A program made the position numbers and the translations under genes. From Mycolicibacterium alvei (GTDB taxonomy: Bacteria > Actinomycetota > Actinomycetes > Mycobacteriales > Mycobacteriaceae), in NCBI RefSeq assembly GCF_010727325.1, contig NZ_AP022565.1, positions 806,001 to 870,000 on the forward strand: a stretch of 64,000 nucleotides of DNA, read 5' to 3'. Position 1 is the first letter of the stretch, and each line of letters opens with the position of its first letter. The notes under the pieces were generated by a model, which was given only the letters and a program-made list of their open reading frames with translations, had not been told where the DNA came from and made no database searches. Positions 10,243-55,150 of the stretch are shown one piece after another.

Positions 10243-10325
10243 GATCCGTCACAAGTCAGGGCGGATGCGCTGCCGCGTCACTCACCGACCGCGGTCAACA
10301 CCTCGCGATCACTGTGTCCCGTTCC

Positions 10326-11237: not shown

Positions 11238-11395
11238 TCTGAATCTCCTCTGAGCAGACGACAGCCGGGTTGTCCGGTGTAGCCCTGACGTTAACCATAG
11301 CGGCACGTGTGTCAGGAGACATTGGACCCTAGGATGACGCACCGAGCGTAAATCTTCGATCGGGACATCAGGCTGAGCCGATAGGGTGGTTGCCC

Positions 11396-12130: not shown

Positions 12131-12137
12131 GCGTGCT

Positions 12138-12707: not shown

Positions 12708-12718
12708 CTACTCGCCCA

Positions 12719-34585: not shown

Positions 34586-34667
34586 GACCGTTGATATTCG
34601 CACCTAGGACCGACATCTCCGCTCCGCTGGGACGTGCTAGGTCCCGCTCCACCACGAACACAGAGAA

Positions 34668-34866: not shown

Positions 34867-35571
34867 CTACGCCAGCTCATACAAACTCCCCCGCTTGCTC
34901 GCCATCGTCGATTCGACCGATGCGGCAAGACCGCTGTCGTGAATCAGCAGCCCGAATTCGACGTTGCGGTTCTCCGCGTTGTACGAGAAGTTCGCGCTGG
35001 TGAGCAGCACGATCTCGTGATCGACGATGATGAACTTGGTGTGACTGACGATCGGCTTGCCATTGGGCAGGGTGGCTGACCGATACACCGTTGCCCGCGG
35101 CAGCCGCGCCTTCACCTTGACCGGGTCGCCTTTATCTCCGTCCACGTACACGCAGACGGCGACTTCAGGCTCCTCGGACGCCGCCTTGAGTGAATCCCAC
35201 ATGTTCGAGGACGGCGAAAAGTTGTAGGTCGCGCATGTGACGGAGGTGCGGGCGGCGGCGACCACGTCGTGAAACTGGTTGGTCAGGTGACCGACCGTGG
35301 CCTCGTTGCCCGGCATCGTCCACACCGGGATCAGGTCGCGGTGCGCCGATTTCGCGCCCGCGATACCGTGCAAGACCGCAACCGACAACTCCGGCGAAGC
35401 ATGCCCAATGCCGGCCGCTTTCAACAGTTCTGCGACCCGTTCACGCCGGGCGGCGCTCACCGACGCCAACGCGTGGGTGGTGTGTTCCCCCGCGTCGAGC
35501 AGTACCGCTAACCCCTCGGCCTCGGTGGCGGTGAGGTACTCCCCCAGCCGGCCCAGCGGGTCATTGGACAT
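34867..35571 (-). CDS. drmC: DISARM phospholipase D-like protein DrmC
   Basis: 234 residues, overlapping drmB by 11 nt. The phospholipase D/nuclease signature is SHTKFIIVDHEIVLLTSANFS near residue 177 (HxKx4D). An earlier half with DVVAAARTSVTCATYNFSPSS resembles the degenerate first repeat. DrmC is a class-wide DISARM component; reports describe it as dispensable in at least one system. Last gene of the operon. Confidence 0.88.
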   Translation of the reverse strand: MSNDPLGRLGEYLTATEAEGLAVLLDAGEHTTHALASVSAARRERVAELLKAAGIGHASPELSVAVLHGIAGAKSAHRDLIPVWTMPGNEATVGHLTNQFHDVVAAARTSVTCATYNFSPSSNMWDSLKAASEEPEVAVCVYVDGDKGDPVKVKARLPRATVYRSATLPNGKPIVSHTKFIIVDHEIVLLTSANFSYNAENRNVEFGLLIHDSGLAASVESTMASKRGSLYELA

Positions 35572-37612: not shown

Positions 37613-40600
37613 CAGTCCTCATCTCCCACCGGCAGGGTCCAGCGCGGTGCACCGTCGGGTACATGCGCGAATAGCCGCTCCGGGATCGGGCTGACCAGAA
37701 TGTTGATCTCCGGCTGGACTTCGCGCATCGAGTTGGCGACGACGAACGGCGGATGGGCGGAGGAGCCGACGCCGGCCTTGGCGTTCTCCGGGCTCATCAG
37801 CAGTGGCAGGTACTTATCGCCTTCCCCGGTACGTTCGTAGACCAGCGTCTTGTGCATGTCGCCGGCGCGGGTGGCCCGGTCCACCCAGCGGTCGATCCGG
37901 TTGACCAAAAGGTCGCTGGCGTACTTCACCGCCGCCTCATCCTGGGCGGCGGCCTTGATGCGGGCCATGAGCCGGTCGGCGATCCGTTCCACTTCCGCGC
38001 GTTGGTCTTTGATCCGCCAGGCGCCACGTTCCGGGGAGAGTCCGTCGTCGGTGCGGGCCTGGGTGACCCGGGCGGCGCTGACCAGCAGCCCATCGAGGCC
38101 CCGGTCCAGGGAGGTAGGCGAGTACGGGGTTACGGACAGCGCTTCAACCTGGGCGTAGAACGTTTCGTGGTAGTGGCGGAACTGCTCGTAATGGGCCAGA
38201 TCGCGGGGGCGTGCCCAGTTGCCTAGTGTCACAACCAGACCCGGCCGTTCGGCGTCGCGGCCGACACGGGAGGACGCCTGGATGTATTCGGCGGTGTTCT
38301 TGGGCTGGCCGACCACCAGCATCAAACCGAGCCGCTGCACGTCCACCCCGACCTGCAGCATCGAGGTGGCCAGCACCACGTCGAACGGCGGCACCTTGCG
38401 GGCAGGTACCTTCTTTCCTGCCTTCTGGGCAGCCATCCGGGCCTGAAAGGCCGCGGTGGTGTCGTAGTCGGCGTCGAAGTCCAGCCCCAGTCGGTCCAGG
38501 GTCTCACCGATTTTCGACGAGGCCATGCGCCCGGTGAGTTCGCCCTTGTTGAGGAAGCCGTAGTCGGTTCCGATGCGCGGCGGGAACCCGGAGTCCTTGC
38601 GGGGCCGCTTGACTCGGTTCTGCACGTCATCCCCGAGGTAGCGGGTCATGCCGGCCAGTTCGCGGGTGGCGTTGAAATAGCCGACCAGGGTCATGTACGG
38701 GTCGGCTGCCATACCGCTGCTGTCGAACAACAACTGCCCCGCCGACAGCAACACCTCCGCGACCCGGATCTCGGCGCTGGCCAGACGCACCCCCTGGGCG
38801 CTCACCCCCACGTAGCGGCGACCGGGCGTGGCCTTGGTGATCGGGATTTCGCGGGAGAAGTAGGTGTCGGCGACGTCGAGCACCTGCGGCGGGAAGATCT
38901 CGACTCTCCGCCCGTACAGGCCGCGGACCTGTTCCTGCGCGTTGCGCACCGTCGCGGTGGAGGCGACGATCAGCGGCCGCACCGGCTTGCCGTCGGGTTG
39001 TTCCCAGGACGCCAAGGTTTCCACCGCAACCTCGAACAAGCCCACCGAGGTGCCCAGCGCACCGGTGATCAGATGCAGCTCGTCCTGGATGATCAGATCC
39101 GGTGGCCGCAGCCGGCCCACCGGATGCACGGTGGCCGTGGGATATCCGCTGGTGGCGGGATGCGCGGTGGAAATGTTGCACGCCGCGTAGTCGGAGTGCA
39201 CATAGCCGTGGCGGGCGCAGCGCTGCCCGACGAAGCCGAACAACGCCGCAGCCTCACCTTCACGCGCCAGCCGGGCGAACTTGTCGACCGTCGCGATGAC
39301 GAACGCCGGCGTGAGCCGGTAGATTTCCTCGTCCACGGTCAGGATCGGCAGGCCTTCGGCGACCTGACCGCCCCTGGCGAACGGGCAGCGCGCCAGATCA
39401 TCCCCGCAGTAGACGAACACCCGGCGCGCCGTGGCGTCGGCCTTGACCTGTGCGGCGGTGATGGGGGTGCCGCACCACGGGCAACGCTGCACCTGTAGCA
39501 CGGTAAGTCGGTGCGCCCCATACTCATTGGCCTTGGTCAGCTGTTCATCGGCTTCTTCGAACCGTTTCGGGCTGACATCGGTGCCCACCCACAACCCGAT
39601 CCGGAACGGCTCGACACCCCAGGTGGCTTCGTCGGCCTGGCGGGCCAGCTCGGCCGCACACACCAGGGCTGTCGCCCGCTGAAACTGCTGAGCGGTCAGC
39701 AGCCGCAGCGTATAGCGCATCAGCACCGCCACCCCGTCGCGGCCATCCAGCGAGCCGTCGGCAGAGTCGACAACACCCTGGCGGCGGCGGATCGCGAACG
39801 TATACGCCGCCAGCCCGAGGTAGGCCTCGGTCTTGCCGCCACCGGTCGGGAAGAACAACAACTCCACCCGTGCCAGGTGCTCGGCGCTGCGCAGCGGCGC
39901 GGCCGGGTCTGACAAGGCTCCCAGCTGCATCAGGATGAACGCCAACTGGAACGGCCGCCACGACGCGGCTTTCTCCCCCTTGCCGGCGATCTCATCACGG
40001 GCGTCGGCGATCGACAGCGTGGGATCCGAGGCCCGCAGCGCCGCCACCTGGGAGGCGATGCGTTGATCGCGCATCACCGCGTTCATGAACTGAAAACACC
40101 GCAACGCCTCCGCATCGCCGGCGACGTGATCGAGCCCTTCTTGCAGCCGTTTGTGGGCGCTGCGGGCCTCCACCAACGCCAGATCGGCGGTCTCGCGCAG
40201 ATGGTCGGGCAACTGCTCGGCACCGCTCTGCTGCTCGTCGATCCACTCGCCGTACCCGGTGACCAGCGGCGCCAACCCCGAGCGCAACTGCTCGGCGTTC
40301 ACCGTGGCCAGGGCGTCCATGGACAGCAACGCCTTCTCGACATCGCGGGCCTGGGTTTGCGGAGTCTCGGCGACCGGCAACCAGGTGGTCCACACTGCGG
40401 TGGCGCGCCGCGAACCCTTTTTGGCGGTCCAGTCGACCGAGCAGGTCCGCCCGATCGCGTACTCAAGTCGGTTGCGGTACTGCAGGTTCAGCCGTTGCAC
40501 CTCAAGATCATGCTCGGGCCAGTCCTGTTCCAGCACGTCGCACACCGGGAGGAACACCTCGGCCCCGCCGGCGTCGACGTGCAGCTTGGTTTGGAACATC

Positions 40601-41325
40601 CACATCCCGATCGGGATCGGCATGGGTGTCTCACGGTCATTACACAACGCGATCTCGACGAGCACCCGGCCGAACGTCGCGTCGTCGTAGCGGTCGACCC
40701 GCAGGCAGATGGTGTCGCGCAGCGGGATCGTCGTGGTCTGACCGGCCGCCAGGTCGGCAAGGCGGATGGTGCGGGGTTCCTCGACCGGGATCCGTTGGAA
40801 GTGGCGGATCGGGCGGCCCGCCTTGGTGACCTTGTCGGTCTGCACCGACTCGTAGGTTCCCCACGACGCGGTGACCGTGAACGCCGCCAACTCCGGCGGC
40901 ACCTGAAACCGCAGCCCCATCGAGGCCGGAATCATCAAGCCCTGCTTGGGCGCTCGATCCTCGGCGTCGTCTTCGTCGGAATCGGCCTCGTGCTCGTCGG
41001 CGGCGAACGCGGGAACCCCGCGCACCTCCGACACGGCATCCTCGTCGGCGCGGGCCTCCACCAAAACCCCCCGCTCAGCGACACCGTCCTGCTCGCCGCT
41101 TCCCTGAGTCGCACCGGTGAGCCGCACCGGCGCGATGTGCCCGATGAGGTACTGCGAGCGCGGGCTGAACGGCAGCAGCTCGTCGGCACCGTGGATCGGG
41201 CCGAGCAGCTCACGTTCCAGGATGTCGACGAGATTCTCTCGGACGGTGAACGACGTGCGGTCCGGCTCGAAGGTCAACGCGTACGAAGCCTGCGATCCAG
41301 CCGCGTCCATGGATGTATCGGTCAC
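37612..41325 (-). CDS. drmA: DISARM helicase-like protein DrmA
   Basis: 1237 residues from GTG 41325, which overlaps the recombinase stop as GTGA; longer starts run back through that gene. Walker A is LLFFPTGGGKTEAYLGLA near residue 486, a DExH-type motif is LIIQDELHLI near residue 744, and motif VI is QASSRVGRDAERPG near residue 1018. Cys pairs CPWCGTPI occur mid-protein. Superfamily 2 helicase-like and the structural core of DISARM with DrmB. Confidence 0.92.
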   Translation of the reverse strand: MTDTSMDAAGSQASYALTFEPDRTSFTVRENLVDILERELLGPIHGADELLPFSPRSQYLIGHIAPVRLTGATQGSGEQDGVAERGVLVEARADEDAVSEVRGVPAFAADEHEADSDEDDAEDRAPKQGLMIPASMGLRFQVPPELAAFTVTASWGTYESVQTDKVTKAGRPIRHFQRIPVEEPRTIRLADLAAGQTTTIPLRDTICLRVDRYDDATFGRVLVEIALCNDRETPMPIPIGMWMFQTKLHVDAGGAEVFLPVCDVLEQDWPEHDLEVQRLNLQYRNRLEYAIGRTCSVDWTAKKGSRRATAVWTTWLPVAETPQTQARDVEKALLSMDALATVNAEQLRSGLAPLVTGYGEWIDEQQSGAEQLPDHLRETADLALVEARSAHKRLQEGLDHVAGDAEALRCFQFMNAVMRDQRIASQVAALRASDPTLSIADARDEIAGKGEKAASWRPFQLAFILMQLGALSDPAAPLRSAEHLARVELLFFPTGGGKTEAYLGLAAYTFAIRRRQGVVDSADGSLDGRDGVAVLMRYTLRLLTAQQFQRATALVCAAELARQADEATWGVEPFRIGLWVGTDVSPKRFEEADEQLTKANEYGAHRLTVLQVQRCPWCGTPITAAQVKADATARRVFVYCGDDLARCPFARGGQVAEGLPILTVDEEIYRLTPAFVIATVDKFARLAREGEAAALFGFVGQRCARHGYVHSDYAACNISTAHPATSGYPTATVHPVGRLRPPDLIIQDELHLITGALGTSVGLFEVAVETLASWEQPDGKPVRPLIVASTATVRNAQEQVRGLYGRRVEIFPPQVLDVADTYFSREIPITKATPGRRYVGVSAQGVRLASAEIRVAEVLLSAGQLLFDSSGMAADPYMTLVGYFNATRELAGMTRYLGDDVQNRVKRPRKDSGFPPRIGTDYGFLNKGELTGRMASSKIGETLDRLGLDFDADYDTTAAFQARMAAQKAGKKVPARKVPPFDVVLATSMLQVGVDVQRLGLMLVVGQPKNTAEYIQASSRVGRDAERPGLVVTLGNWARPRDLAHYEQFRHYHETFYAQVEALSVTPYSPTSLDRGLDGLLVSAARVTQARTDDGLSPERGAWRIKDQRAEVERIADRLMARIKAAAQDEAAVKYASDLLVNRIDRWVDRATRAGDMHKTLVYERTGEGDKYLPLLMSPENAKAGVGSSAHPPFVVANSMREVQPEINILVSPIPERLFAHVPDGAPRWTLPVGDED

Positions 41326-42656
41326 AAGGTAACAGTCTGCCGTAGCCCACCGACGAGGTCCGGCTCCCGCATGGATTGGTTCGAACCGGAAGGGCGCCAC
41401 CGGAGCATCACACGGTCTTCGTCGAAGTAGCGTCCGACGACGCCGCGGCGAACTCGCAGGCTTGCAAGCTGCGTCAAGAGGACCTTTCGCCGCGCCAATT
41501 CATCACGACCTGCGGCGTCCCAGCGGTCCCGGACGGTTGAGTCCCCAAGCGGTTCGCTTCCCCGCTCCGTAAGAAGACGTGCGATGAGGTACGGGTCGAA
41601 CGTTGTCCTGCTCAGCGTCTGTCGGCACTTCGGGCAATAGATGACCGGCCGCCTCTGGTTGGTCCCACGACACATGTAGACCTCGCAGTCGTCGCACCGC
41701 GCGACACGTGACATGAACGGGCTCGTCGTCTCCCGCTCGGATCGTTTTCGCGCCTGCGGGCATGTGCGCGAATCAAGGATGCGCTGCAGCGCTGTGAACT
41801 CGTCGATCGTGATGACAGCGAGTGGCTCGTTGACGACCGGGGCGCCGCACTCATCGCGGACTACCGCAAATGGGTCGACCCGTTTGGCGCTCCTGGCCCT
41901 TCCGGGATTGTGCGGGGTCATCCCGGCCAGAATGGGGTTCCGCAAGAGTCCGTCCACCGTTTGTCGGTTCCACACCCTGCCGCCCGTATTCCGGCTTGTT
42001 CTTGGCCCCTCGGGAAGTGGCGCCCTCTGATTGGTCAGCCAGGTCGTGATGGCGTTGACGCTGGTGCCGCGCAACGCCATCCGGACGGCATCGGTGAGCC
42101 AGCCGACGGTATCTGGATTCTGGGCAAGCACTCGCCCTGGCCCTTCCGGGTTTGCTGTCGAGCGATAGCCATATGGGATGCCACCGCCGGCGAAGCGTCG
42201 GTCCTTGATCAATTGCGCCCGTGCGGCGCGAACTCGCGCCCGTATCGCCTCAGCTTCCATTTCGCCGAAAACGGCGAGCATGACGGCGAAAGCACGGCCC
42301 TGCGGACTGGTCATGTCGATCGGATCCTCGACCGCGACGAGTCCGGCACCTCGCAGCTGAAGCGTCTCGTCCGCGTGAAGGAAGTCCAGCACTCGCCTCG
42401 CGAGCCGATCCACCTTCCAGATCACCACGGCATCGAAACCTTCTGCTGCCAGCAGGGCGGACCAGCCCTTTCGGTCCTCGGGGCGGTTGGCGGTCGCAGA
42501 GACGCCGTCGTCGACGAATTCGCCGACGACCTCCCACCCGCGCGCTTCGGCATACCTCCGGCACGATTGGACCTGGCGCGCGATGGAGACGGATTCTTCT
42601 TTGGTGACGCTGAGCCGCGCGTAGAGGACGCAGTGGCTAATTCGGTTGATGTTCAT
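41322..42656 (-). CDS. Large serine recombinase (candidate invertase of the drmMI switch)
   Basis: 444 residues from ATG 42656. The resolvase domain is complete: catalytic Ser in VLYARLSVTKEES, FVDDGVSATANRPEDRKGW, WKVDRLARR, and the E-helix AFAVMLAVFGEMEAEAIRARV. A recombinase domain (GIPYGYRS...) and a zinc ribbon (CDDCEVYMCRG...CPKC) follow. It lies inside the DISARM operon: its start is 40 nt from the edge of the 253-bp inverted repeat, and its stop overlaps the drmA start. DNA inversion between the drmMI copies is the inferred job. Shorter than phage integrases, like transposon-type serine recombinases. Confidence 0.88.
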   Translation of the reverse strand: MNINRISHCVLYARLSVTKEESVSIARQVQSCRRYAEARGWEVVGEFVDDGVSATANRPEDRKGWSALLAAEGFDAVVIWKVDRLARRVLDFLHADETLQLRGAGLVAVEDPIDMTSPQGRAFAVMLAVFGEMEAEAIRARVRAARAQLIKDRRFAGGGIPYGYRSTANPEGPGRVLAQNPDTVGWLTDAVRMALRGTSVNAITTWLTNQRAPLPEGPRTSRNTGGRVWNRQTVDGLLRNPILAGMTPHNPGRARSAKRVDPFAVVRDECGAPVVNEPLAVITIDEFTALQRILDSRTCPQARKRSERETTSPFMSRVARCDDCEVYMCRGTNQRRPVIYCPKCRQTLSRTTFDPYLIARLLTERGSEPLGDSTVRDRWDAAGRDELARRKVLLTQLASLRVRRGVVGRYFDEDRVMLRWRPSGSNQSMREPDLVGGLRQTVTL

Positions 42657-42695: not shown

Positions 42696-42948
42696 GCGCT
42701 ACCTCACTGTTGCAGGCGAAGGGCACAATAGGGCTAATCGCTACAAACACTGTGGCGCAAGGTGATACGCGCGAAGTCGGCCTGGACGCGATGGTCGCCA
42801 ACGGTTTCACCATCACTCGCGCCATCCAATCTCGCTCGTGGCCGGCCTCGAGCGCCAACCTTGAGTACGCCGCAGCCTGGGGCACGCTCGGCCCCGTCGC
42901 CGAGGGCGTGCCCCGCGTCGCCGACGACGTGCCGGTGCGCCGCATCAG
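42696..42948 (+). repeat. Inverted repeat, left arm, of the drmMI switch
   Basis: 253 bp matching the inverse complement of 46422-46674 with one difference visible (C at 42772). It encodes the same residues as drmMI from the SLLQAKGT segment to VPVRRIS. After the IS3 insertion the match continues another 57 bp (44199-44255 with 46421-46365) before divergence. Confidence 0.95.
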
Positions 42949-42977
42949 TGAGGGGGACCCATTCGGTGGTCCAGTCG

Positions 42978-43826
42978 CTATGCGGCTTGGGGTTGGTGGG
43001 TCGTGGTCCACTGTAGGGCGAACTCGGCTGGGCTGAGTCCGCGGTGGGCCGAATGCGGTCGGTTGGCGTTGTAGTCGATCCTCCAGTCTTCGATGATCAC
43101 CCGGGCTTCGAGCAGTGAGTCGAAGCGCCAGGAGTTGAGCAGCTCGTCGCGCAGTCGGCCGTTGAACGACTCGATCCATGCGTTCTGCCAGGGTGATCCG
43201 GGGTCGATGAAAAGTGAGCCGGTGCCGTTGAACCGGCACCAGTCGTTGACCGCGTGGGCGACGAACTCGGGCCCGTTGTCAAAGCGCACGTAGTGCGGCG
43301 CGCCATGTTGGTCGACCAGTTGGTCGAGGATGTCGACGACCCGGTCGGCGTTGATGGCGCGATCGACGTGGATCGCCAGGGCTTCGCGGGTGAACTCGTC
43401 GATGATGTTGAGCATTTTGATGGTGCGCCCGTCGGCGGTGGTGTCGAACTGAAAGTCCATCGCCCAGATCACGTTCGGCTGGATCGGGCACATCGCGCCG
43501 ACCGCGGTCCCGATGCCGGTCAGACGTTTCTTCTTGCGGCGCTGCGGGACTCGCAGGCCCTCGTCGCGCCACAGTCGGCGGACGCGCTTGTTGTTGACGA
43601 CCCAGCCCGCTTTTCGTGCGGCAATCGCCGCTCGTCGCCAGCCCCAGCGGGGCCGGTCGGTGGAGAATTTCCGCAGCCAGGCCCGCAGCTCGGCTTCCTC
43701 GTCGGTGATCGGTGGCGGCGTCAGTCGCATCGTGGAGCGGTGAATGCCGACCACCGTGCAGGCTCGACGCTCAGAGACCCGAACCGCTCACGCAACGCCG
43801 TGACGGCGCTGCGCTTGCGATCCGGG
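42978..43826 (-). pseudogene. IS3 OrfB transposase, 1-nt frameshift
   Basis: DDE integrase core: Asp in VIWAMDFQFD, Asp in RFDNGPEF, Glu in WIESFNGRLRDE. The N-terminal part GKLLTPDRKRSAVTALRERFG is in another frame. The family reads ERFGVSERRAC across this point; here one base is missing at the GGG run 43778-43780. The shift is downstream of the normal orfA/orfB slippage region, so it is probably a true lesion. Confidence 0.8.
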
Positions 43827-43827
43827 G

Positions 43828-44115
43828 TCAGAAGTTTCCCGACGAGATCTCCTTGAGCATGTCGATGTCGAGGGCCTGATTGGCGACCAGCTTCTTGAGC
43901 CGGGCGTTCTCGGCCTCGAGTTCCTTGAGCCGTTTGGCCTCGTTGGCTTTCATGCCGCCGTACTGGGCGACCCAGCGATGCCAGGTCGACTCGGTGACCT
44001 CCAGGTGCCGGCACACCTCGGCCAGCTCCTGCCCGGTCCCGAGGAGCTTGTTGCCCTCGGCGAGCTTGCGGATGATCTGATCCGGCGTGTGCCGCCGGCG
44101 CTTGTTCGATGCCAT
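43828..44115 (-). CDS. IS3 OrfA helix-turn-helix protein
   Basis: 95 residues from ATG 44115 (MASNKRRRHTPDQII). HTH_21-type DNA-binding domain (GQELAEVCRHLEVTESTWHRWVAQYGG) followed by a leucine-zipper-like helix (KRLKELEAENARLKKLVANQALDIDML). Normally makes the OrfAB fusion by frameshifting; with orfB broken only OrfA can be made. Confidence 0.88.
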   Translation of the reverse strand: MASNKRRRHTPDQIIRKLAEGNKLLGTGQELAEVCRHLEVTESTWHRWVAQYGGMKANEAKRLKELEAENARLKKLVANQALDIDMLKEISSGNF

Positions 44116-45376
44116 GTCGTCGTCGATTCTTCCTGCCCGAACACCGGGCATCAGAGTCGCACAACAACTGGACCACTACGAAGGGCTCACCTCATCAGCA
44201 CCCTGCTCGAACCCGCCGGCCGAATAGAAGGCAACCCCATCCGACTCCCAGAAAACTCCGGAATCGCCTACATCGGGTGCTACGTGCTCGGCATGGGGTT
44301 CGTGGTCGATGTTGCTGAAGCGCACGAGTGGATTGCCACCGATGCACGCAACGCTGAAGTGCTCTTCCCCTACCTCAACGGCGAAGACCTCAACTCCCGT
44401 CCCGACGCCTCCGCCTCCCGCTGGGTCATCGACTTCAACGACCGCACCGAAGCCGACGCCGCGACCTACACACTTCCGTATTCCCGGCTAGCCGAACAAG
44501 TCAAGGCGGAGAGAGCGGGCAAGCCGAAAGCAGTGCGCGACGCTCCGTGGTGGTTGTTCCTGCGGGCACGTCCCGCGATGCGTGAAGCGGTCGCCGCATT
44601 GTCGGAGGTGTTGGTCATCGCTCGTGTCAGCAAAACCGTGATGCCACTGCGCGTTCCGACAGGTCAGGTGCCGAGCGAAGCCTGTGTGGTGTTCGCCTCG
44701 GACAGCTACAGTCACCAGGCAGTCTTGTCATCAAGCCTGCACCAGATCTGGGCGATCACCTATGGTTCGGGGCTGCGGAACGACCCGCGTTACACCCCTT
44801 CGGATGTGTTTGAGACCTTCCCCCGTCCCACGCTTACGGATCGCCTTGAGCGCGTCGGACGCACCCTGGACGAGGAACGTCGCGAGATCATGCTCCGCCG
44901 CAAACTCGGATTGACGGCCCTCTATAACCTGGCCAACGACAGGCACATCGCCGATAGCTCAGACCCCGACGTCGCCCGGGCACGGGCCATCCACGTCGAA
45001 CTCGACTACGCAGTCATAGAGGCCTATGGGTGGTCGGATATTCCGCTGGACCACGGGTTCCATACTTACAGAAAGATGGAGCGCTGGACCATGTGCCCAA
45101 CTGCGCGCACCGAGATTCTTGATCGGCTCCTTGAAGAGAACCATCACCGCGCCGAACTGGGTCCGTCAAGTCAACCCGTCTCGGCGCGAATCGAGGTCCC
45201 CCACGAGGAAGGCACACTTTTCTCCTGATCTCGCTCTCCCAGTTCGGGCCGATCCCCGAATCCATAGCCACGACCCGAGTGGGGCCGAAGCGGCGCCCGC
45301 AGGAACAAAGCAGATGCGCGACCTGCGTTGGGTCGCCCAGCTTCCGGCACCGGCGAGTTGAACGACGAACGTCCAT

Positions 45377-48300
45377 TCAGGTGAACAGTGTCCCGTCCTC
45401 CATGGGTAAGTTGGTCTTGCGTGAGGCGGCCTGGTAAGGCCGTTCCAGTTCAGCGCGACGGTGGTTCTCTTGGACAAGGCGATCAAAGATTTCGACGCGG
45501 GCTGCAGGACTTACCGTCCAGCGAGTCATCTGCCGGTAGGTGTGGAAGCCATGGTCTACAGGGATGTTGTCCCAACCGTAGGCGTCCATGGTCGCCTCAT
45601 CTACATCGACATGGATGTTGCGCAGTCGGTCGACATCCATGTCGCCTTTCAGATCGGGGTTGTTTACGAGGTTATAGAGGGCCGTCAATCCGAGTTTGCG
45701 GCGGAGCATGATCTCGCGACGTTCCTCGTCCAGGGTGTGTCCGACGCGCTCAAGGCGATCCGTCAGCGTGGGACGGGGGAACGTATCAAACACGTCGGAG
45801 GGCGAGTAGTTCACATCAGCGCGCATGGTGGAGCCATATTTCACAGCCCAGAGCTGATGCAGGTTTGACGACAGAACAGCCTGATCGGCGAACGAATGAG
45901 TTGCAAAGACCCCGAGCTTGTGACTGAATACTTGCCCAGTCGAAACCCTTACCGGCATCACTGTTTTGCTGACAAGCGCGACGACCAACACCTCCGACAA
46001 CGGAGCGATCGCTTTTCGCATTGCCGGACGCTTCTCGCCGTACTGCCACCAGCGCTCGGGCAGAGGTCGGCGCAACACGAACGATCCGTCCGGCTTCACA
46101 CGCTGTCGCTCCGGCTTTACAGCGGCGACGAGTCTGCGAAACGGGAGGACGTACTCTGCGGCGTCGGCTTCGGTGCGGTCGTTGAAGTCGATGACCCAGC
46201 GGGAGGCGGAGGCGTCGGGGCGGGAGTTGAGGTCTTCGCCGTTGAGGTAGGGGAAGAGCACTTCAGCGTTGCGTGCATCGGTGGCAATCCACCGTTGCGC
46301 TTCGGCAACATCGAGAACAAAGCCCATCCCGAGGACGATGCAGCCCTGGAACGCGATACCGGAATTTTCTGGGAGTCGGATGGGGTTGCCTTCTATTCGG
46401 CCGGCGGGTTCGAGCAGGGTGCTGATGCGGCGCACCGGCACGTCGTCGGCGACGCGGGGCACGCCCTCGGCGACGGGGCCGAGCGTGCCCCAGGCTGCGG
46501 CGTACTCAAGGTTGGCGCTCGAGGCCGGCCACGAGCGAGATTGGATGGCGCGAGTGATGGTGAAACCGTTGGCGACCATCGCGTCCAGGCCGACTTCACG
46601 CGTATCACCTTGCGCCACAGTGTTTGTAGCGATTAGCCCTATTGTGCCCTTCGCCTGCAACAGTGAGGTGGCGCGGAGGAAGAAGTAGGCGACTAAATCG
46701 GCGCTGCCACGGCGGCCTCCAGCAACACTGTTGACGAACCAGTCGCGGACAGACGTGCCGACCGCTCCGGTGAGCTTCTGGCCACCGAGAAATGGCGGAT
46801 TCCCGATGATCGCGTCGAACCCGCCGCGCTCCACGACGACATCGGGCGCTTCGATGACCCAGTGATTCGGCTGCCACCGCTCATAGTCGGTCGGCACGGT
46901 CGGAGTGAGGCCAGTGTGGATGATCCTGTCGAGCATGGTCGAATCTGGCTCGCCGGATTCCGGATATGCGGCTTTGACGGCGATGCGGAGGTTCTCGTAT
47001 GCGTCGTCGAGAGCCCTTCCCGGTTTGCCTCCGAGCGGCAGCCCGGCGGCAATCGCCCCATCAGCAATCTTGCGCAATTCGGCTGTCACATCATGCAATT
47101 GGTCAAGCTGACGGCGCTTTGCCGTGCTGTTGCGGGCCGGGTCGTTCTCGTCGATTTCGGAGGCGAGCTTGCGGCGCAAGTCGACAGCTTTGCGGATGAT
47201 GGCGTCGATGTCGACGTCGTAGAAGTCGATCATCGCCGTGGATGGCACCCGTGATGGGTCGATGTGCAGCTTGCGGAGTTGGTCGAGGCTGGTCAGCCCG
47301 AGCAGGGAGTTGCCGAGGAAGATCTTGTCGTCGACGAACGAAAACGGCAGGTCGCGGTCCAGCGATACCAGCCATAGCGACAGTTTGCACATCTCGACGG
47401 CCATGTCGTTGATGTCGGCGCCGTAGATGCAGTTGGCGACGACCTCACGGATGGCCCGCAGATACAGGTCGCCGCGTTGACTGTTGGTGGGGTCTTCAGC
47501 GGTCCACGCCTCCACCACCCGTTCGGCGAGATAACGTGCGGCGGCGACCAGGAATGCCCCAGAGCCACAAGCGATGTCGGCGACTTTGAGGCTGAGGATG
47601 TCGTCGGAGGGTTTGAGCGTCCACGTCGATTCGTCGGCGGTCTGGTACGGGCCGGGTTGGTAGCACAGCGGTTGCAGCGCGTGCAGCACCACCTCTTCGG
47701 CCAGCGATTTCGGCGTGTAATGCGCGCCGGCATTCTTGCGCGACGGGGTTTCCTTGACCATCAGGCCGCCGGCGCGGACGACCATTGGCCGGCCGCGCAG
47801 GTCCTGACGGATCAGGCCCAGCCACGGCAGCACCCGCTCCCGCAGATCGGTGTCGTCGCCGACGGCCTGGGTCAGCGCACTGACGACGTTGGGCTCCACT
47901 GTGGCACCCATCGCTTTGGCGATCGCAGATTCTGATTGTGGCGTGGCCGAGGGTTGGTCCTGCTCGACCCAATCGCGGACGGCGGCGGCCAGCTTCTTCG
48001 GCGAATCGTCGTGCCCGCCGTGCAGCTGTTCGAGCTGCGCCAGCGGGATCTCCGGTTCCTCACCCTTCTTGCCGCCCAGACCGAGGTGGGTCTCGCTGAC
48101 GGTGACGGCCGTGTAACCGAGCAGACCCTCATAGATGTAGCCGATCTGCTCAACATCGATATCGCGGAACGAGATTCGGCGCGCCTCACCGCCCTTGAGC
48201 TCAGCCTGCTGCACCGACCGCAGGGCGTGCAGCATCACCCGGTCGGACACGGTCAGCGCCAGCGCGCCCTGGTCGGTGGTGGCGGTCAGGAATCCAAACC

Positions 48301-49444
48301 GGCTGGGGTCGAACAGCGACCCGCCGTAGGCGGGCATCCGCATACCCTCGAACGAAGCGCCGGCGTAGAGCGCCTGACTGGTGGCCAGCAGGCGATGCCA
48401 CGTCATCGAGGTGGCGTCGAGCGCCTCCTCGCCTTCGTTGATTTCGCGTGCCTGCAACCGATCCAGCGACCCGGCGATACCGTAGCCCTGCTCGAACAGC
48501 TCCCCCGACGGCAGCAGGCCGCGTTCCTCGGCGAACAGCAGGAACACGATCCGCATCATGGTGGTGACCGCGGCCTCGTACGCGTCGTGCGGGTGCTCGG
48601 GCAGCGGATTCGGCAGCCCGCGGCGGAGCGCGTCGGCGGCGGATTCGGAGAACGACGCGATCAGCAACTCCACGGCGCGGCGCACCTGGGAGCCCAGGGC
48701 CTCGGTGATCTCCTCGGCGGCGGCCACCGAATCCTTGAACAAGTCCGGCAGCCGGTCGTTCGGGTCGCCGCCGATGATGTACTGGCGGCCGGTAATCGTG
48801 AAGAAGGCGTCGCGGGTGCGAGGTTCCTCGATCCAGGTCAGTGCGTCCACGATGCCGGAGGCCGCCATGGCGCCGTCGCGGGCGCACACCAGACCCCACC
48901 AGCGTCCGTCGGTGACAATGCCGGTCTGGATGCCGTTGTCGCGCAACAACGCTTCCATCCGGTCGACCGGGGTCGCCGCCCACAGATCGTTGGGCACCTG
49001 CCGCAGCGAATCGACCGGATCGATCACGGAGACCAGGGCGCCGATGCCGTCGGGCCCGGTGAGTGCGGCCTGCGCGGTCACCGTCACCGCCCGGTTCGGG
49101 GACTGCGCCGACACCCCGGGCACCTCACCCCAGGACAGCGACTCGGCCCAGCCGACCACCTCCCGCAACACGGTTTCGACCCACTTGTCGCGGGCCACCC
49201 GGTAGCCATCCAGGGTCGCCTCGTCATCCGGGCGGCGGTCGAGCGCCTCCCACGCGGGTTCGAAATCCTTGCGGGCGTCGGCCAGCAGGCCCTTGCGGTC
49301 CGCGGGCAGGCTCGGCATCCCTTGCGGCCACACCCGTTTGAGCGGGGCGATCGCCAGGAACGGGCCTTCGGTGTCGACCAGTTGCAGCCACTGCCGGTGC
49401 AGGTCAGCGACATTGGCGGTCTGTTGGCGTCGTCGCGCGGCCAT
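45377..49444 (-). CDS. drmMI: DISARM class 1 adenine methyltransferase DrmMI
   Basis: 1355 residues from ATG 49444, overlapping the drmD stop as TGATG. SAM motif I is VADIACGSGAFLVAAARY near residue 623 and the N6-adenine motif IV is FDAIIGNPPFLGG near residue 880, as in Eco57I/PglX-type methylases. Residues from about 925 to the end form the region repeated in inverted orientation at 42696-45228; the presumed target-recognition domain lies there. In DISARM it marks host DNA as self. The currently expressed allele is intact. Confidence 0.92.
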   Translation of the reverse strand: MAARRRQQTANVADLHRQWLQLVDTEGPFLAIAPLKRVWPQGMPSLPADRKGLLADARKDFEPAWEALDRRPDDEATLDGYRVARDKWVETVLREVVGWAESLSWGEVPGVSAQSPNRAVTVTAQAALTGPDGIGALVSVIDPVDSLRQVPNDLWAATPVDRMEALLRDNGIQTGIVTDGRWWGLVCARDGAMAASGIVDALTWIEEPRTRDAFFTITGRQYIIGGDPNDRLPDLFKDSVAAAEEITEALGSQVRRAVELLIASFSESAADALRRGLPNPLPEHPHDAYEAAVTTMMRIVFLLFAEERGLLPSGELFEQGYGIAGSLDRLQAREINEGEEALDATSMTWHRLLATSQALYAGASFEGMRMPAYGGSLFDPSRFGFLTATTDQGALALTVSDRVMLHALRSVQQAELKGGEARRISFRDIDVEQIGYIYEGLLGYTAVTVSETHLGLGGKKGEEPEIPLAQLEQLHGGHDDSPKKLAAAVRDWVEQDQPSATPQSESAIAKAMGATVEPNVVSALTQAVGDDTDLRERVLPWLGLIRQDLRGRPMVVRAGGLMVKETPSRKNAGAHYTPKSLAEEVVLHALQPLCYQPGPYQTADESTWTLKPSDDILSLKVADIACGSGAFLVAAARYLAERVVEAWTAEDPTNSQRGDLYLRAIREVVANCIYGADINDMAVEMCKLSLWLVSLDRDLPFSFVDDKIFLGNSLLGLTSLDQLRKLHIDPSRVPSTAMIDFYDVDIDAIIRKAVDLRRKLASEIDENDPARNSTAKRRQLDQLHDVTAELRKIADGAIAAGLPLGGKPGRALDDAYENLRIAVKAAYPESGEPDSTMLDRIIHTGLTPTVPTDYERWQPNHWVIEAPDVVVERGGFDAIIGNPPFLGGQKLTGAVGTSVRDWFVNSVAGGRRGSADLVAYFFLRATSLLQAKGTIGLIATNTVAQGDTREVGLDAMVANGFTITRAIQSRSWPASSANLEYAAAWGTLGPVAEGVPRVADDVPVRRISTLLEPAGRIEGNPIRLPENSGIAFQGCIVLGMGFVLDVAEAQRWIATDARNAEVLFPYLNGEDLNSRPDASASRWVIDFNDRTEADAAEYVLPFRRLVAAVKPERQRVKPDGSFVLRRPLPERWWQYGEKRPAMRKAIAPLSEVLVVALVSKTVMPVRVSTGQVFSHKLGVFATHSFADQAVLSSNLHQLWAVKYGSTMRADVNYSPSDVFDTFPRPTLTDRLERVGHTLDEERREIMLRRKLGLTALYNLVNNPDLKGDMDVDRLRNIHVDVDEATMDAYGWDNIPVDHGFHTYRQMTRWTVSPAARVEIFDRLVQENHRRAELERPYQAASRKTNLPMEDGTLFT
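46422..46674 (-). repeat. Inverted repeat, right arm, inside drmMI
   Basis: Mate of 42696-42948: 253 bp with one mismatch. It covers drmMI codons of about residues 924-1007. Recombination between the arms would invert about 4 kb and replace the drmMI 3' end. Confidence 0.95.
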
Positions 49445-52400
49445 CAGCGCAACCCTCCTTCCGCGTCGTCGGGGGTGAGCGCGAACACCACGGCCGCCGC
49501 GGTGGTGTGCGGTTTGACGTCGGCGTAGCGTTCGCTGATCGCCGCGACCTCGCGCGCTTCCTCGTCGTCAAGGTCGTCGAGGCGGCGTTGCATGGCCTCG
49601 ATGTCGCGGCGCCACTGCTTCTGCTGATCGTCGGCCCACAGCATCGCCTCGGACTCGGCCTGTTTGGAGCGCAGCTGGGCCAGGGAGTCGCGCAGGTTGC
49701 TGCGGAACGCCGCGAAAATGTCGCGCGCCCGTTGGGTATCGGCGTGTTGGCGTTTGGTCAGCTGCTCGATCACGGATTCCTGCCGGCGCGCCGCCCGATC
49801 CTGCATCGACGCCTCCAACCGGGTACGCAACGGCGCGTCGGGGATGTTCCACAGCTGGCACAGGTGATCGCGGACCTGCTGGCCGGCGGGTGTGAGCTTC
49901 TCCGCGTCGAGCGCGTGGTCTAGAGCCTTCTCGGCTTTCTCCTCGGCCATCGCCCGGCGGCCCTTCAACCGCACCCCGACCAGGAACACGTCCTCGTGTA
50001 GCCGCAGCCCGCCGCGGCCGACCAGCACCATGCGGGTCACTGCCGCCACGAACGATTCCGGCAGGTCCTCGACCACCACCGCGGTCACCCGGCTCAACGG
50101 AGAATCCACGCTCCACAACGAACTACGCAGCAGCCGTTGGGCTTTCTGCACGATCGGGTGCCCGAGGTGCACATACACCAGGTCGCTGCGTCCTTCCGCG
50201 GCGGCCGGGTCGAACGTGATCGGCCGCAGCACATCGGGTTCCAACCGGGTTTCCAAGCCTTTGAGGGTGTCCTGCCACCCTGGGCTCAACGCCGGCACCT
50301 CGAACACCTCGGCGTCGGTGTCCGGGTCACCGATCGGCTGCAACGGCAACTGATGATTGATCCGCAACGCGGTGTCGACCACGCGGCGCAGATTCTCCGG
50401 TTCCAAATGCAGATCGGCGCGTGACGCGTCATAGCCGCGTTCCAGCTCCGTCAACCGTGCGTTGAGTTCGATACCTCCGGCCAGCGTCTCTTGGATCACC
50501 TGATTGCCGTCGAGGCCCTTGGCTTTGCGTGTGGCAGGGGTGCGGCGGGCGAAATGCTCCTGAATCTCCTCGCCGATCACCTGGTTGGCCGACCCCAGAT
50601 CCACCTCGACCTGGGCGATCTTTCGGGCGATGCGGGCCATGAATTCCGCGTCGGCCCCATAGGTGGAGGACTTGTCGTCGGGAACGAAGTGATGGACCTC
50701 GGGTGTCTCGGTTTGGCCGTAGCGATCAATGCGACCGATGCGCTGCTCCAGCCGCGACGGGTTGAACGGGATGTCGAAGTTCACCAACCGGTGGCAGTGG
50801 GTTTGCAGGTCGATACCCTCACCCGCTGCATCGGTGGCCAGCAGCACCCGCACCGGCTCCTTGGCCGGGTCCGCGGTGAACTGCAACCGGATGAGTTCGC
50901 GGTCCTCGGTGGGCGTTTGGCCTTCGATGACCGCCAACCGGTCGGTGTAGCCGTGGGAGGCCAAGACCCGCTGCAACCAGCCGAGGGTATGGGCGTATTC
51001 GGTGAACACCACCACCCGCTCGTTGGACCAATGCTTGCCGCCGGGCCGGCACACCGCGTCCAGGAAAGTGATCAGCCGTTCCAGCCGGGAATCCGGGCGC
51101 CCCTCGTAGCTCAGCCCCCACTCGGCCAGCTTCTCCAGCTGTCCCGGCTCGGCCGCGCTGAGCGGGTCCGAGGCCTTCGACTCACGAAGCCGCTCGGCCT
51201 CGTCCTGCTCCCACAGGCCTTCTTCCTCGTCGGCCTGACCGTCACCGAAGATGTCGTCGTAGTCGTCGTCGGAGAGTCCGCGGCCGGTCCGCGCATCCAC
51301 GTAGTGGCCGATCGTCATGCCAAAAGCGAAGGGGCTGGACAAGAATCGCTTCTTGAGCAGCATGGTGACGATGTCACCGCCCGGCTTGGTGCCGTTCTTC
51401 TTGGCGCTGCGAGTGACAATGTCGTCGAGCAGGGCGAACATCTCCTGCTCGCTGTCATCAGGTGTGAAGTTCAGGATCTTGACTTCGCGGTCCTTGAACC
51501 CCTTGCCCGTCAGGTCGCGTTTGAGCCGACGCACCGTGACGTCCTTCAACGCTTTGGCGTCCAGGAGCGCGCCACGGGAGAACCGGCGGGGATCGATCAT
51601 CTCCATCAGCGCGGTGAACGACTCGGGATGCCCGTTGTGCGGGGTGGCGCTCAGGAACAGCCGGTGCTCACACTTGTCGGCAAGCTGACGGGCCGCCACG
51701 GTGCGTTGGGTGTCCACCGAATAGCCGCGGCCGCCGGCCACCGCCGACGGGCTCGACGGCGCGACGTGGTGGGCCTCATCGACGATGAGGACATCGAAGG
51801 CAAACCGCTTGCCCACCTTCGGGTTACGGGCCTGGGCGTAGACGTCGCGCAGCAGCCGTTGGCACCGCACCTGCGGCAGCCACGCCATCGACACGATCAC
51901 CCGCGGGTAGAGCTGGAACGGGTTGGCGTGCAGCCCGTGGGTGCGGCGCACCTGCGCCATCAGCTCGCTGTTGACGATGACGAACTGCAGACCGAACTTG
52001 TCGCGCATCTCGTCCTGCCACTTCAGTGCCAGGCTCGGCGGGCACACGATCACCGCGGTGCGGGCCCGATGCCGCAAGAACAGCTCCTGCAGGACCAGGC
52101 CGGCCTCGATGGTCTTGCCCAACCCGACGTCGTCGGCCAGCAGCAAGTTGGTCCGCGGGCTCGTCAGGGCGCGCCTGAGTGGTTCGAGCTGATAGGCCTC
52201 CACGACCACACCGGACCAGAACGGCGCCTGGTAGCGGTTCGGGTCGGCCGAGGTGACCGCGCCCCAGCGCATCGCGTCGATGAAGCCCGCCAACGTAGCC
52301 GGATCGTCAAACCCCTCCCGGGTGATGTGCTCCGGCAGGCCCTGCGCCGGGGTGACCGTCTGGCCCACCTCCAACTCCCAGATCACCGACAACTGCTGGC

Positions 52401-52986
52401 CGAGCCGGTCCTCGTCGAGTGACTGCAGATCGACGATGTGATTGAGCTGCGCGGCCGTGTCGTCGGCGGGGCTGCGCGGTAGACCCTGCGCCGCGACGTT
52501 GGCAACCGCCCATGTCGCACCGCGTACCTCGACGACCTGACCGGGTTCTGGCAGGGACGGCGCAGCTACGGGCACAGGTGATCCTCCGGTCAGTTTGGTT
52601 GGGGGAACAGTATCGCCGTCCGCACCGACAACCGCGCGGATAGCGTCCTCGGAGAGGCCCAGGTGTTCAGAAAGCTTCGTCACTGCTGCGACGACGGCCT
52701 GGCTTCGCTGGTGGGGCTTCGCGGTGGCGGTGGCTTCCCGGACTTCTCGGCGAATGCGATTGCGCTGACCGGCGGTCAGAAGCTCTTCGGGCAATGCCTC
52801 CGGCAGTTCGTCGTGGAGCAGGTAATCGATCGTGTCGTAGCAGATGCCGTACTTCTCCTGGAGCTCGGCGCAGGTGTTGCGCATCGCCCACTCCTGGCCG
52901 TGTGCATCGATCGCCTCTTGCACGGCACGACGGATCGTCGACCGCTGCCCCGGTGACAGTTGGTCTGCTTCTGCTTTCGGTGACAC
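49444..52986 (-). CDS. drmD: DISARM class 1 SNF2-like helicase DrmD
   Basis: 1180 residues from GTG 52986; upstream starts run into the divergent gene's promoter and encode Arg-rich junk. SNF2/SF2 motifs: Walker A LLADDVGLGKTIEAG near residue 280, VLIVDEAHHVAPS near 402, LFLSATPHNGHPES near 446, motif V LATDAAGEGIDLQ and motif VI QRIGRIDRYGQ near 747. A helical C-terminus rich in Glu/Arg follows. DrmD defines class 1 DISARM together with DrmMI. Divergent from the HExxH-HicA gene. Confidence 0.92.
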   Translation of the reverse strand: MSPKAEADQLSPGQRSTIRRAVQEAIDAHGQEWAMRNTCAELQEKYGICYDTIDYLLHDELPEALPEELLTAGQRNRIRREVREATATAKPHQRSQAVVAAVTKLSEHLGLSEDAIRAVVGADGDTVPPTKLTGGSPVPVAAPSLPEPGQVVEVRGATWAVANVAAQGLPRSPADDTAAQLNHIVDLQSLDEDRLGQQLSVIWELEVGQTVTPAQGLPEHITREGFDDPATLAGFIDAMRWGAVTSADPNRYQAPFWSGVVVEAYQLEPLRRALTSPRTNLLLADDVGLGKTIEAGLVLQELFLRHRARTAVIVCPPSLALKWQDEMRDKFGLQFVIVNSELMAQVRRTHGLHANPFQLYPRVIVSMAWLPQVRCQRLLRDVYAQARNPKVGKRFAFDVLIVDEAHHVAPSSPSAVAGGRGYSVDTQRTVAARQLADKCEHRLFLSATPHNGHPESFTALMEMIDPRRFSRGALLDAKALKDVTVRRLKRDLTGKGFKDREVKILNFTPDDSEQEMFALLDDIVTRSAKKNGTKPGGDIVTMLLKKRFLSSPFAFGMTIGHYVDARTGRGLSDDDYDDIFGDGQADEEEGLWEQDEAERLRESKASDPLSAAEPGQLEKLAEWGLSYEGRPDSRLERLITFLDAVCRPGGKHWSNERVVVFTEYAHTLGWLQRVLASHGYTDRLAVIEGQTPTEDRELIRLQFTADPAKEPVRVLLATDAAGEGIDLQTHCHRLVNFDIPFNPSRLEQRIGRIDRYGQTETPEVHHFVPDDKSSTYGADAEFMARIARKIAQVEVDLGSANQVIGEEIQEHFARRTPATRKAKGLDGNQVIQETLAGGIELNARLTELERGYDASRADLHLEPENLRRVVDTALRINHQLPLQPIGDPDTDAEVFEVPALSPGWQDTLKGLETRLEPDVLRPITFDPAAAEGRSDLVYVHLGHPIVQKAQRLLRSSLWSVDSPLSRVTAVVVEDLPESFVAAVTRMVLVGRGGLRLHEDVFLVGVRLKGRRAMAEEKAEKALDHALDAEKLTPAGQQVRDHLCQLWNIPDAPLRTRLEASMQDRAARRQESVIEQLTKRQHADTQRARDIFAAFRSNLRDSLAQLRSKQAESEAMLWADDQQKQWRRDIEAMQRRLDDLDDEEAREVAAISERYADVKPHTTAAAVVFALTPDDAEGGLR

Positions 52987-53090
52987 CCCCACAGGGCCAA
53001 ACCGTAGCTGGGTGGCACGTCTGACACGCGGATTTGAGGCCCGACGTCTCGCTTCACAGTGGACCAGCAATGCTGTGGCAGGATCGCCCC

Positions 53091-54233
53091 GTGGCTGACC
53101 CGCTCTGGCTTCCCGAAGTCGTCGACACCCTCGTGGACATGGACCTCGTTGACCTCGACAGCGTCGGCCCCTGGCCCGGTGATCCAGAAGACGCCGATAT
53201 CTACGAGCCGGACTGGACGCAGATCCATCCAAATGACCGAATGGCCGATTCGCCGCTTGATGACTTACCGATCGGGCAGTCTGCGGTCATCGACGAAGTC
53301 CGCAAGCGCGCCAGCGGCGGGTTCCTGGTTCCGCCGCGTGATGTCTTGGACGCGCTCGCTTGGTACACGCCGATTCACTATTTCGGCCTCGGCTCGGCCA
53401 TTTACATTCGGGAGTCGGCCGTCTTCGACGTCGCCGTAGCCATCCTCAACCGACTGCCTGAGCCCGAACGCGGGCAACCGGCCAACGTCATGGGTGCGTG
53501 CCGAGCAGCCATGTCGGTGCTCTACCTACATGAGGCGTACCACCACAAGATCGAATCGTTGGCAATCCGATTCGAAATGGTGGAGCGGACACGGCGCTAC
53601 CTCCCCTACTCCAAGGGGGTATTCATCCCGCTCATCAAGCAGGGATCTGATGACGTGCTCGAAGAATCGCTCGCGTGCGCGGAGATGTATCGCCGTTTCA
53701 AGAAAGAAGATCTCTACCGCCGAGGAGTCGCCAAGGTTGTCCGGGATGCGACCATCGCGATGCTTCCGGAGTGGTTTCGTGCCCTTCCGCCCAGCTACCG
53801 CGAAGCTGGCCGCTACCTCCATGACCGGACATTCGACTACGCGCAACGGGCGCTGATGAGCCAAGTGCACGAAGCAGCCGTTTCGCCCATACGGGCGGCC
53901 AGCGAGTGGAACCTGGCCCCGCACCTGCGTCGTGGTCTGTTCGACTGCCAGCGCATCACACACGTGCTCGTCCCGAAGGGCGAGCAACCGATCCTGCCCT
54001 GGATCGGCCACGCTCCTGCGCTTCCCTCCGTGAGCAGTCGAAAAGCCATCCGCCACCTGGAAGAACTCGGGTGGAAGGTTGAGCCTGGTCGCGGCAAAGG
54101 TTCGCACATTCGTCTCAAACATGTTGGGAAGCAATCACTCACGATCCCCGGCAATCGCGAGTCGCTCTCGCCGGTCGTGTTGAAGTCGGTCGCCCAAGCA
54201 CTAGGTGTGCGTCTCGGCGATCTGGCTTTCTAG
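53091..54233 (+). CDS. HExxH metallopeptidase-like domain fused to HicA-like domain
   Basis: 380 residues from GTG 53091 (AGGA seven nt upstream); ATG 53070 is an alternative. Near residue 147 LYLHEAYHHKIESLAIRFE shows a zincin-type HExxH. Residues about 312-375, SRKAIRHLEELGWKVEPGRG and KGSHIRLKHVGKQSLTIPGN then VVLKSVAQALGV, match the HicA double-stranded-RNA-binding-like fold including its catalytic His in GSH. HicA toxins cleave mRNA. No HicB partner is adjacent. Divergently transcribed from drmD across a short shared promoter region, so it may be a DISARM-linked regulator or effector. Confidence 0.65.
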   Translation: MADPLWLPEVVDTLVDMDLVDLDSVGPWPGDPEDADIYEPDWTQIHPNDRMADSPLDDLPIGQSAVIDEVRKRASGGFLVPPRDVLDALAWYTPIHYFGLGSAIYIRESAVFDVAVAILNRLPEPERGQPANVMGACRAAMSVLYLHEAYHHKIESLAIRFEMVERTRRYLPYSKGVFIPLIKQGSDDVLEESLACAEMYRRFKKEDLYRRGVAKVVRDATIAMLPEWFRALPPSYREAGRYLHDRTFDYAQRALMSQVHEAAVSPIRAASEWNLAPHLRRGLFDCQRITHVLVPKGEQPILPWIGHAPALPSVSSRKAIRHLEELGWKVEPGRGKGSHIRLKHVGKQSLTIPGNRESLSPVVLKSVAQALGVRLGDLAF

Positions 54234-55131: not shown

Positions 55132-55150
55132 CCCAATGTCTGACATTGGG
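55132..55150. promoter_or_regulatory. Palindrome spanning the gajA start codon
   Basis: CCCAATGTC-t-GACATTGGG: perfect 9-bp arms around one base, with the gajA ATG inside the left arm. Could be an operator or an mRNA hairpin hiding the start codon. Confidence 0.5.

Follow-up and report, generated by a model that had tools for sequence, protein, structure and literature searches.

Class 1 DISARM (defence island system associated with restriction-modification) carries a recurrent module made of a serine recombinase gene and an inverted partial copy of the methylase gene drmMI. We describe it in a 64,000-nucleotide stretch of the Mycolicibacterium alvei genome (RefSeq assembly GCF_010727325.1, contig NZ_AP022565.1, positions 806,001 to 870,000), hereafter the window, in which the inverted copy and the recombinase are placed between drmMI and drmA. 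Judged by its sequence, this is a real and conserved DISARM module with the anatomy of an inversion switch, damaged by an insertion sequence (IS) in this strain. We put at roughly 85% the probability that class 1 DISARM has here a built-in inversion module driven by the recombinase, a switch that would change or silence target recognition. The parts of the module are the following.

45377..49444, minus strand: drmMI, the expressed methylase, 1355 aa (PADLOC DrmMI PDLC02643, 1653.8 bits; Pfam Eco57I, MmeI_Mtase and, at residues 1041-1227, MmeI_TRD).
41322..42656, minus strand: large serine recombinase of 444 aa, running in the same direction as the drm genes (Pfam PF00239 and PF07508).
46422..46674, minus strand: inverted-repeat arm within drmMI.
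42696..42948, plus strand: inverted-repeat arm of the silent cassette.
46664..46674, minus strand: expressed-side crossover site GCGCC-AC-CTCA, with the proposed exchanged AC at 46668-46669 in the codon of Thr926 (identity step, 15 loci).
42696..42706, plus strand: silent-side crossover site GCGCT-AC-CTCA, with the proposed AC at 42701-42702, some 40-50 nt away from where the recombinase starts (identity step, 15 loci).
42701..46669, no strand: proposed invertible segment of about 3.97 kb, suggested by the repeat arms and the identity step.
42949..44190, no strand, bounds approximate: IS3-family element within the silent cassette (NCBIfam NF033516 transpos_IS3, 215.8 bits, cut-off 160).
44191..45228, plus strand: remainder of the silent drmMI cassette (equivalent to about residues 1003-1355), its protein 69-71% identical to drmMI.

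The two arms are 253 nt long, 99% complementary and 3473 nt apart, and the open reading frame (ORF) of the recombinase starts at 42656, 39 nt from the nearer arm. Both the inverted 253-bp repeat shared by drmMI and the cassette and the recombinase gene beginning just outside it thus agree with what a preliminary description of this DNA had claimed. Further arms of 325 nt (86%), 150 nt (91%) and 101 nt (79%) pair the cassette with the C-terminal part of drmMI. The cassette ORF at 43978-45228 scores as PADLOC DrmMI, and Pfam MmeI_TRD is found in cassette and drmMI alike. Residues 1-925 of drmMI are constant, and residues 926-1355 lie inside the proposed invertible part. An inverted partial copy, matching sites and an adjacent recombinase, the anatomy of a programmed inversion, are all present. 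Across loci, inverted repeats were located with a seed-and-extend script; a blastn self-search gave only the main arm of the window at the settings used.

One genome of each species was scanned, the query being three aligned recombinases. The scan returned 36 loci, 27 of which have drm genes in the stretch examined (two of these are contigs of one genome); the other nine are a 73% relative, L041, and more distant ones. An inverted partial drmMI lies between drmMI and the recombinase in 17 of the 17 loci that hold both genes, whole or in part, on one stretch, a set that includes the window and L090, which came from another search. The preliminary description had made its proposal depend on other DISARM loci having a recombinase and an inverted cassette, and such loci are spread over many actinobacterial genera. 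The genes usually follow one another as drmD, drmMI, inverted cassette, recombinase, drmA, drmB, drmC; in L034, L039 and L043 extra insertions separate or split the parts of the module.

Loci with drmMI and no recombinase are arranged otherwise. None of 27 has an inverted drmMI copy in the stretch examined, two of these stretches ending inside the gene. No such copy was seen in eight of them (L057, L093-L099), seven of which have drmA directly after drmMI, with about 5 kb between the two in L099. The other nineteen, from the same genus as the window (L130-L148), likewise have none in a flank of about 1.5 kb; drmA is next to drmMI in 16 of them, and L144 and L145 end inside drmMI. In a genus sample of 396 genomes, the 22 others bearing drmMI yielded no recombinase above 35% identity. 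L057 is a second, recombinase-less DISARM in a Nocardia genome that also holds a broken linked locus (L020, L056).

The crossover can be placed at the ACC codon of Thr926 by a step in identity between the expressed and silent copies, measured in 15 of 29 locus pairs; the other 14 were dropped since the site was not locatable on one side. With position 0 as the first base of ACC, and identities summed by hand from the alignment table, the two copies agree at 134 of 525 positions (26%, the chance level) from -40 to -6 and at 576 of 615 (94%) from 0 to +40. Just before the step, 13-14 of the 15 loci agree at -5 to -3 (a GYGC-like word) and 10 of 15 at -2 and -1. Positions 0 and 1 (AC) are invariant in the 15 loci, while position +2 is C, A or T depending on the locus (CC, CA or CT) and is the same within the locus in 15 of 15. 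This pattern points to a two-base overlap AC.

The motif GYGYNACNTCN[CT]T is found at the site in 23 of 25 linked genes and in one of 23 unlinked genes, the motif having been written from the linked set, the unlinked set including same-genus relatives and four of 27 unlinked genes having been left out as not placeable. Its sole unlinked bearer, L144, is a contig-end gene from a genome rated 81% complete that yielded no recombinase. These results bear on the idea that the copies exchange only through RecA-type homologous recombination or gene conversion, the recombinase being incidental. The arms have sufficient length for such exchange (the window, L021 and L023 have 253, 360 and 479 nt at 98-100%), and conserved blocks inside the target-recognition domain (TRD) as well as a chimeric TRD exist. 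However, a homology end as sharp as one base in 15 loci would be unexpected under such exchange, as would the absence of the motif where the recombinase is absent. We consider that explanation very unlikely.

The module, its conservation and the position of the crossover follow directly from the sequences; from these we infer that the segment flips, that the recombinase is the agent, that the reaction is reversible and that it changes specificity. The recombinase would recognise a site inside drmMI (codons ~924-932) and a second one, in the opposite orientation, just upstream of its own start. Strand exchange would take place at the AC dinucleotide of the Thr926 codon, and the inversion would place the C-terminal part of the other copy behind the constant part of the methylase (1-925). 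Since the right halves that change places are copies of each other, either orientation would present the same pair of site types, and the reaction should be reversible. The crossover falls after the NPPF motif, which lies in the constant part at residues 882-885, and before MmeI_TRD, so catalysis should stay and recognition should change. With a full-length silent cassette the TRD would be replaced, and a different DNA motif would then be protected in the host and targeted in phages; a cassette that is interrupted or frameshifted would yield a methylase without a TRD.

Silent frames read from ACC in 12 cassettes suggest that the relatives split into specificity-swap and ON/OFF types. Seven (L021, L023, L025, L033, L035, L045 and L090) have an open silent frame of 407-432 codons, with the consequence that an inversion would replace one target-recognition domain by another. 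Linked strains with a full-length cassette include Lentzea waywayandensis and the Microbacterium strains of L033 and L045. The window, L027, L032, L037 and L048 have a silent frame of only 8-165 codons; the frame of L037 presumes that its altered site aligns as in the other loci. In L035 (5301-8596, a metagenome-assembled genome) the expressed drmMI itself reads as a fusion that is out of frame after about residue 932, with about 1000 aa open, while a complete cassette occupies the silent place, the mirror of L027 and L048. This locus has apparently been caught OFF.

In the window, the silent frame runs for 111 codons from the crossover and then meets a stop inside the IS3 element. Three additional copies of this element, 99-100% identical, are present elsewhere in the genome, and a 4-nt duplication, TCAG, was read by eye at the insertion. 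Past the element, cassette and drmMI are alike over 75 nt at 97% and then over 180 nt at 94%, which is longer than the 57 bp given in the preliminary description. The in-frame swap of 340-430 C-terminal residues that it foresaw is, given the stop at codon 111, unavailable in the present genome. Inversion today would cut drmMI to about 1036 residues without the TRD, an ON/OFF rather than an A/B outcome, and with the arrival of IS3 what was ancestrally an A/B switch would have become either an A/OFF switch or locked. The wider proposal of a phase-variable DISARM thus keeps its recurrent module, its pinpointed crossover and the open silent cassettes of seven relatives, and loses the exchange of specificity in the window to IS3.

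The same observations allow for the window system being dead, with IS3, and perhaps a silenced recombinase, having frozen drmMI. This would concern the window alone and is compatible with an inversion module in the family as a whole. The element in the cassette and the early stop of the silent frame speak for it; on the other hand, neither the two sites nor the recombinase frame shows visible damage, so inversion of the A/OFF kind may still occur. We regard a dead system here as a serious prospect, at somewhat less than even odds.

By its predicted domains, a Resolvase catalytic domain (PF00239) followed by a Recombinase domain (PF07508), the enzyme belongs to the large serine recombinases. 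A CxxC...CxxC pattern is invariant among the three sequences compared, and no zinc-ribbon Pfam match was obtained at 1e-3. Its relatives in the PDB are integrases, invertases and resolvases, and at least 503 proteins (90% clusters) match it at 1e-100. Nine IMG/VR contigs (L121-L129) carry relatives, eight of them 65-73% identical, with no drm genes near them in the stretch examined, and some phage-type genes are present in each of the three contigs checked. The recombinase tree mixes viral-collection and DISARM enzymes and leaves the direction of transfer unsettled; a phage enzyme acting on a host switch is conceivable. The 73% relative L041 lies on a Promicromonosporaceae metagenome contig, with no drm genes in the stretch examined. 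Phage records hold three relatives at about 35% identity, a search of plasmids gave none at 1e-60, and among 398 genomes from the family to which the Microbacteriaceae strain belongs, only the query strain itself was recovered.

The viral relatives, their lack of neighbouring drm genes, their phage-type surroundings and the absence of a clean separation in the tree could suggest that a phage or island once integrated here, its integrase using a site in drmMI, and left behind the inverted copy, a duplicated 3' end of the gene, and the recombinase as a remnant, without any switching. Integration, however, leaves direct and not inverted flanking sites. The same minimal module is moreover found again in several genera, its silent frames open, the identity between expressed and silent copies persists right up to one base, and the nine viral loci offer no good match to the crossover site (at best 17-20 of 29 bases). 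A remnant of this kind is, in our view, highly improbable.

The way in which draft assemblies break at these loci was also recorded. In 12 scan loci a contig end cuts the recombinase or comes within 490 nt of it, and the inverted arm is present on eight of these contig ends. In nine of the ten such draft genomes searched, the drmMI contig ends within the repeat or where it begins, and in seven of the nine it stops at the same residue as the recombinase contig (956, 957, 965 twice, 986, 987 and 1058). These breaks show long near-exact repeats, not flipping. In a further genome (L059), drmMI (10245-14223) is split into two frames near residue 570, and the recombinase of the same genome lies near a contig end.

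Several points weigh against a recombinase-driven inversion module. The cassette is broken in the window. Sampling one genome per species gave no second isolate with the opposite orientation of any single genome, and the drmMI relatives listed for the C-terminal region, at least 120, include no two oppositely oriented loci of one species, their highest identity being 78%. Gene conversion could also maintain full-length silent copies, and exact long repeats break assemblies with or without inversion. The 14 of 29 pairs without a locatable site on one side, partly explained by decayed cassettes or contig ends, and the two of 25 linked loci that lack the site motif also count here. Finally, the recombinase family is not exclusive to DISARM, because relatives in the viral collection and L041 come without drm genes in the stretch examined.

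A bolder extension, which we offer tentatively and with more doubt than belief, is that the recombinase-linked methylases are combinatorial shufflons, in which three inner words of the TRD act as extra exchange points and two cassettes give several chimeric domains. We measured synonymous conservation over codons 900-1335 of 16 linked genes; L035 (truncated) and the recombinase-less L144 and L145 (contig ends) were left out of this codon test. The four highest stretches have observed/expected ratios of 1.64 (site 1), 1.66 (1047-1059), 1.63 (1148-1162) and 1.55 (1186-1195), compared to 1.14 elsewhere, and 0, 0, 0 and 1 of 335 other codon windows reach them, respectively. Two unlinked groups of 14 and 11 genes show nothing at those stretches (1.06-1.24 vs 1.22 and 0.95-1.14 vs 1.05). 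With codon use taken from the whole gene, N-terminal codon windows reach the scores of the sites in linked and unlinked genes alike; it is only relative to the C-terminal sequence around them that the sites are prominent. We also tried a single recognition motif common to the four words and rejected it: no likeness rises above background, the best pair being words 3 and 4 with a mean z of 1.39.

Some cassettes and relatives look as if they had been joined at these words. The cassettes of L027, L035 and L048 read as fusions of site 1 to the word near 1154, and that of L037 as a fusion of a site-2-like word to it. The first three have A at position 2, as in the inner word, and A or T at position 0; the A is only suggestive, because some intact sites also have it. 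A test for mosaic TRDs covered 38 pairs of a locus and a relative, some of them repeating one protein under two names; 36 had enough informative positions, and the eight best were permuted. Before about residue 1188, P0046 follows the expressed copy of L045 (38 vs 16 informative positions), and after it the silent copy (2 vs 49), with p 1.7e-13 and 0 of 200 permutations. P0046 is thus by its sequence a clear chimera, which hints at finer shuffling. Six further pairs reach 5.9e-5 to 7.6e-4 before correction (0-3 of 200 permutations). P0029 and L048 are 99% identical over the N-terminal 900 residues and from about 1150 to the end, and differ at about 990-1150 except for a conserved block at about 1050-1090.

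Against shufflons, it was the linked set that supplied the words, which leaves only the control groups as independent, and the four words are unlike one another, so that one enzyme need not serve them all. The difference between linked and unlinked genes was largest, in an earlier comparison, near residue 957, outside the words. The excess of within-locus over between-locus likeness of expressed and silent copies fades along the TRD with no clear peaks at the inner words, the silent-cassette rows of L033 being void in this comparison.

The remaining genes of the operon are, like drmMI and the recombinase, all on the minus strand.

49444..53232, minus strand: drmD, an SNF2-like helicase gene with which the drm operon opens (NCBIfam NF038317 DISARM_DrmD, 1249.8 bits, cut-off 610; PADLOC DrmD).
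37612..41400, minus strand: drmA helicase (NCBIfam NF038325 DrmAS, 1378.9 bits, cut-off 950).
35561..37612, minus strand: drmB (PADLOC DrmB).
34867..35571, minus strand: drmC, PLD (phospholipase D) nuclease (PADLOC DrmC; Pfam PLDc_2).

Class 1 DISARM consists of drmD, drmMI, drmA, drmB and drmC together. All five genes are present here, drmD and drmA scoring above their NCBIfam cut-offs, and the operon is of this class. We also scored drmMI with two PglX models of BREX (bacteriophage exclusion), and it falls far below both cut-offs, at 34.3 (cut-off 500) and 27.5 (cut-off 900) bits. The 3' end of the recombinase overlaps the drmA ORF as listed. After drmC, a 630-residue ORF (32711-34603, minus strand) has no Pfam or PADLOC match at 1e-3 and is a possible accessory DISARM gene. 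On the plus strand, homologues of the Gabija-like GajA and GajB and a PD-T4-6-like protein are encoded at 55136-56962, 56959-58803 and 60098-61906; together with the DISARM operon, these neighbours form a defence island.

Inversion of BREX pglX is known. Milman et al. 2023 (NAR 51:553), on gene-altering programmed inversions, reportedly found type II restriction-modification genes as new targets, and these could include unlabelled drmMI. The module would belong to the same general class of coding-sequence inversions; what is added here is the crossover site and the operon module, with overlap in DISARM being possible. The Type IIL enzyme MmeI (PDB 5hr4) resembles drmMI in its type of methylase and TRD (Pfam MmeI_Mtase, MmeI_TRD), with a weak sequence match, whereas drmMI belongs to DISARM, together with drmD, drmA, drmB and drmC.

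In the available part of PMC4365076, phase variation of pglX in the Streptomyces Pgl (phage growth limitation)/BREX system is attributed to a G tract. That system likewise has a phase-variable methylase within a multi-gene phage defence system, whereas site-specific inversion, in DISARM, is proposed here. Invertible hsdS loci of type I restriction-modification, for example in Streptococcus pneumoniae (excerpt of PMC4948785), are similar in having inverted partial copies of a specificity gene, whose inversion changes methylation specificity. Here, in contrast, the target would be a DISARM methylase-TRD fusion, on which a large serine recombinase from the drm cluster probably acts. Among the titles and abstract openings listed in text searches of the literature, none reports inversion or phase variation in DISARM, although Milman et al. 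2023 could overlap. The terms recombinase, inversion and phase variation are absent from PMC12839542, and inversion of DISARM is not described in the accessible portions of PMC12458937, PMC12707154, PMC7365801, PMC9142583, PMC4365076, PMC10939037 and PMC11892184. In the Cutibacterium acnes methylome, according to the accessible text of PMC7365801, a motif that, in the authors' words, cannot be genuine may relate to the DISARM of that species.

If the proposed inversion takes place, a defence system that relies on methylation marking would randomly change its own password, with the hardware for doing so inside the operon, in many actinobacteria. How a cell survives the change of its self-mark while DrmAB is active would then become a question. 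The close relatives of the recombinase in viral-collection contigs raise the further question of which side had the enzyme first.

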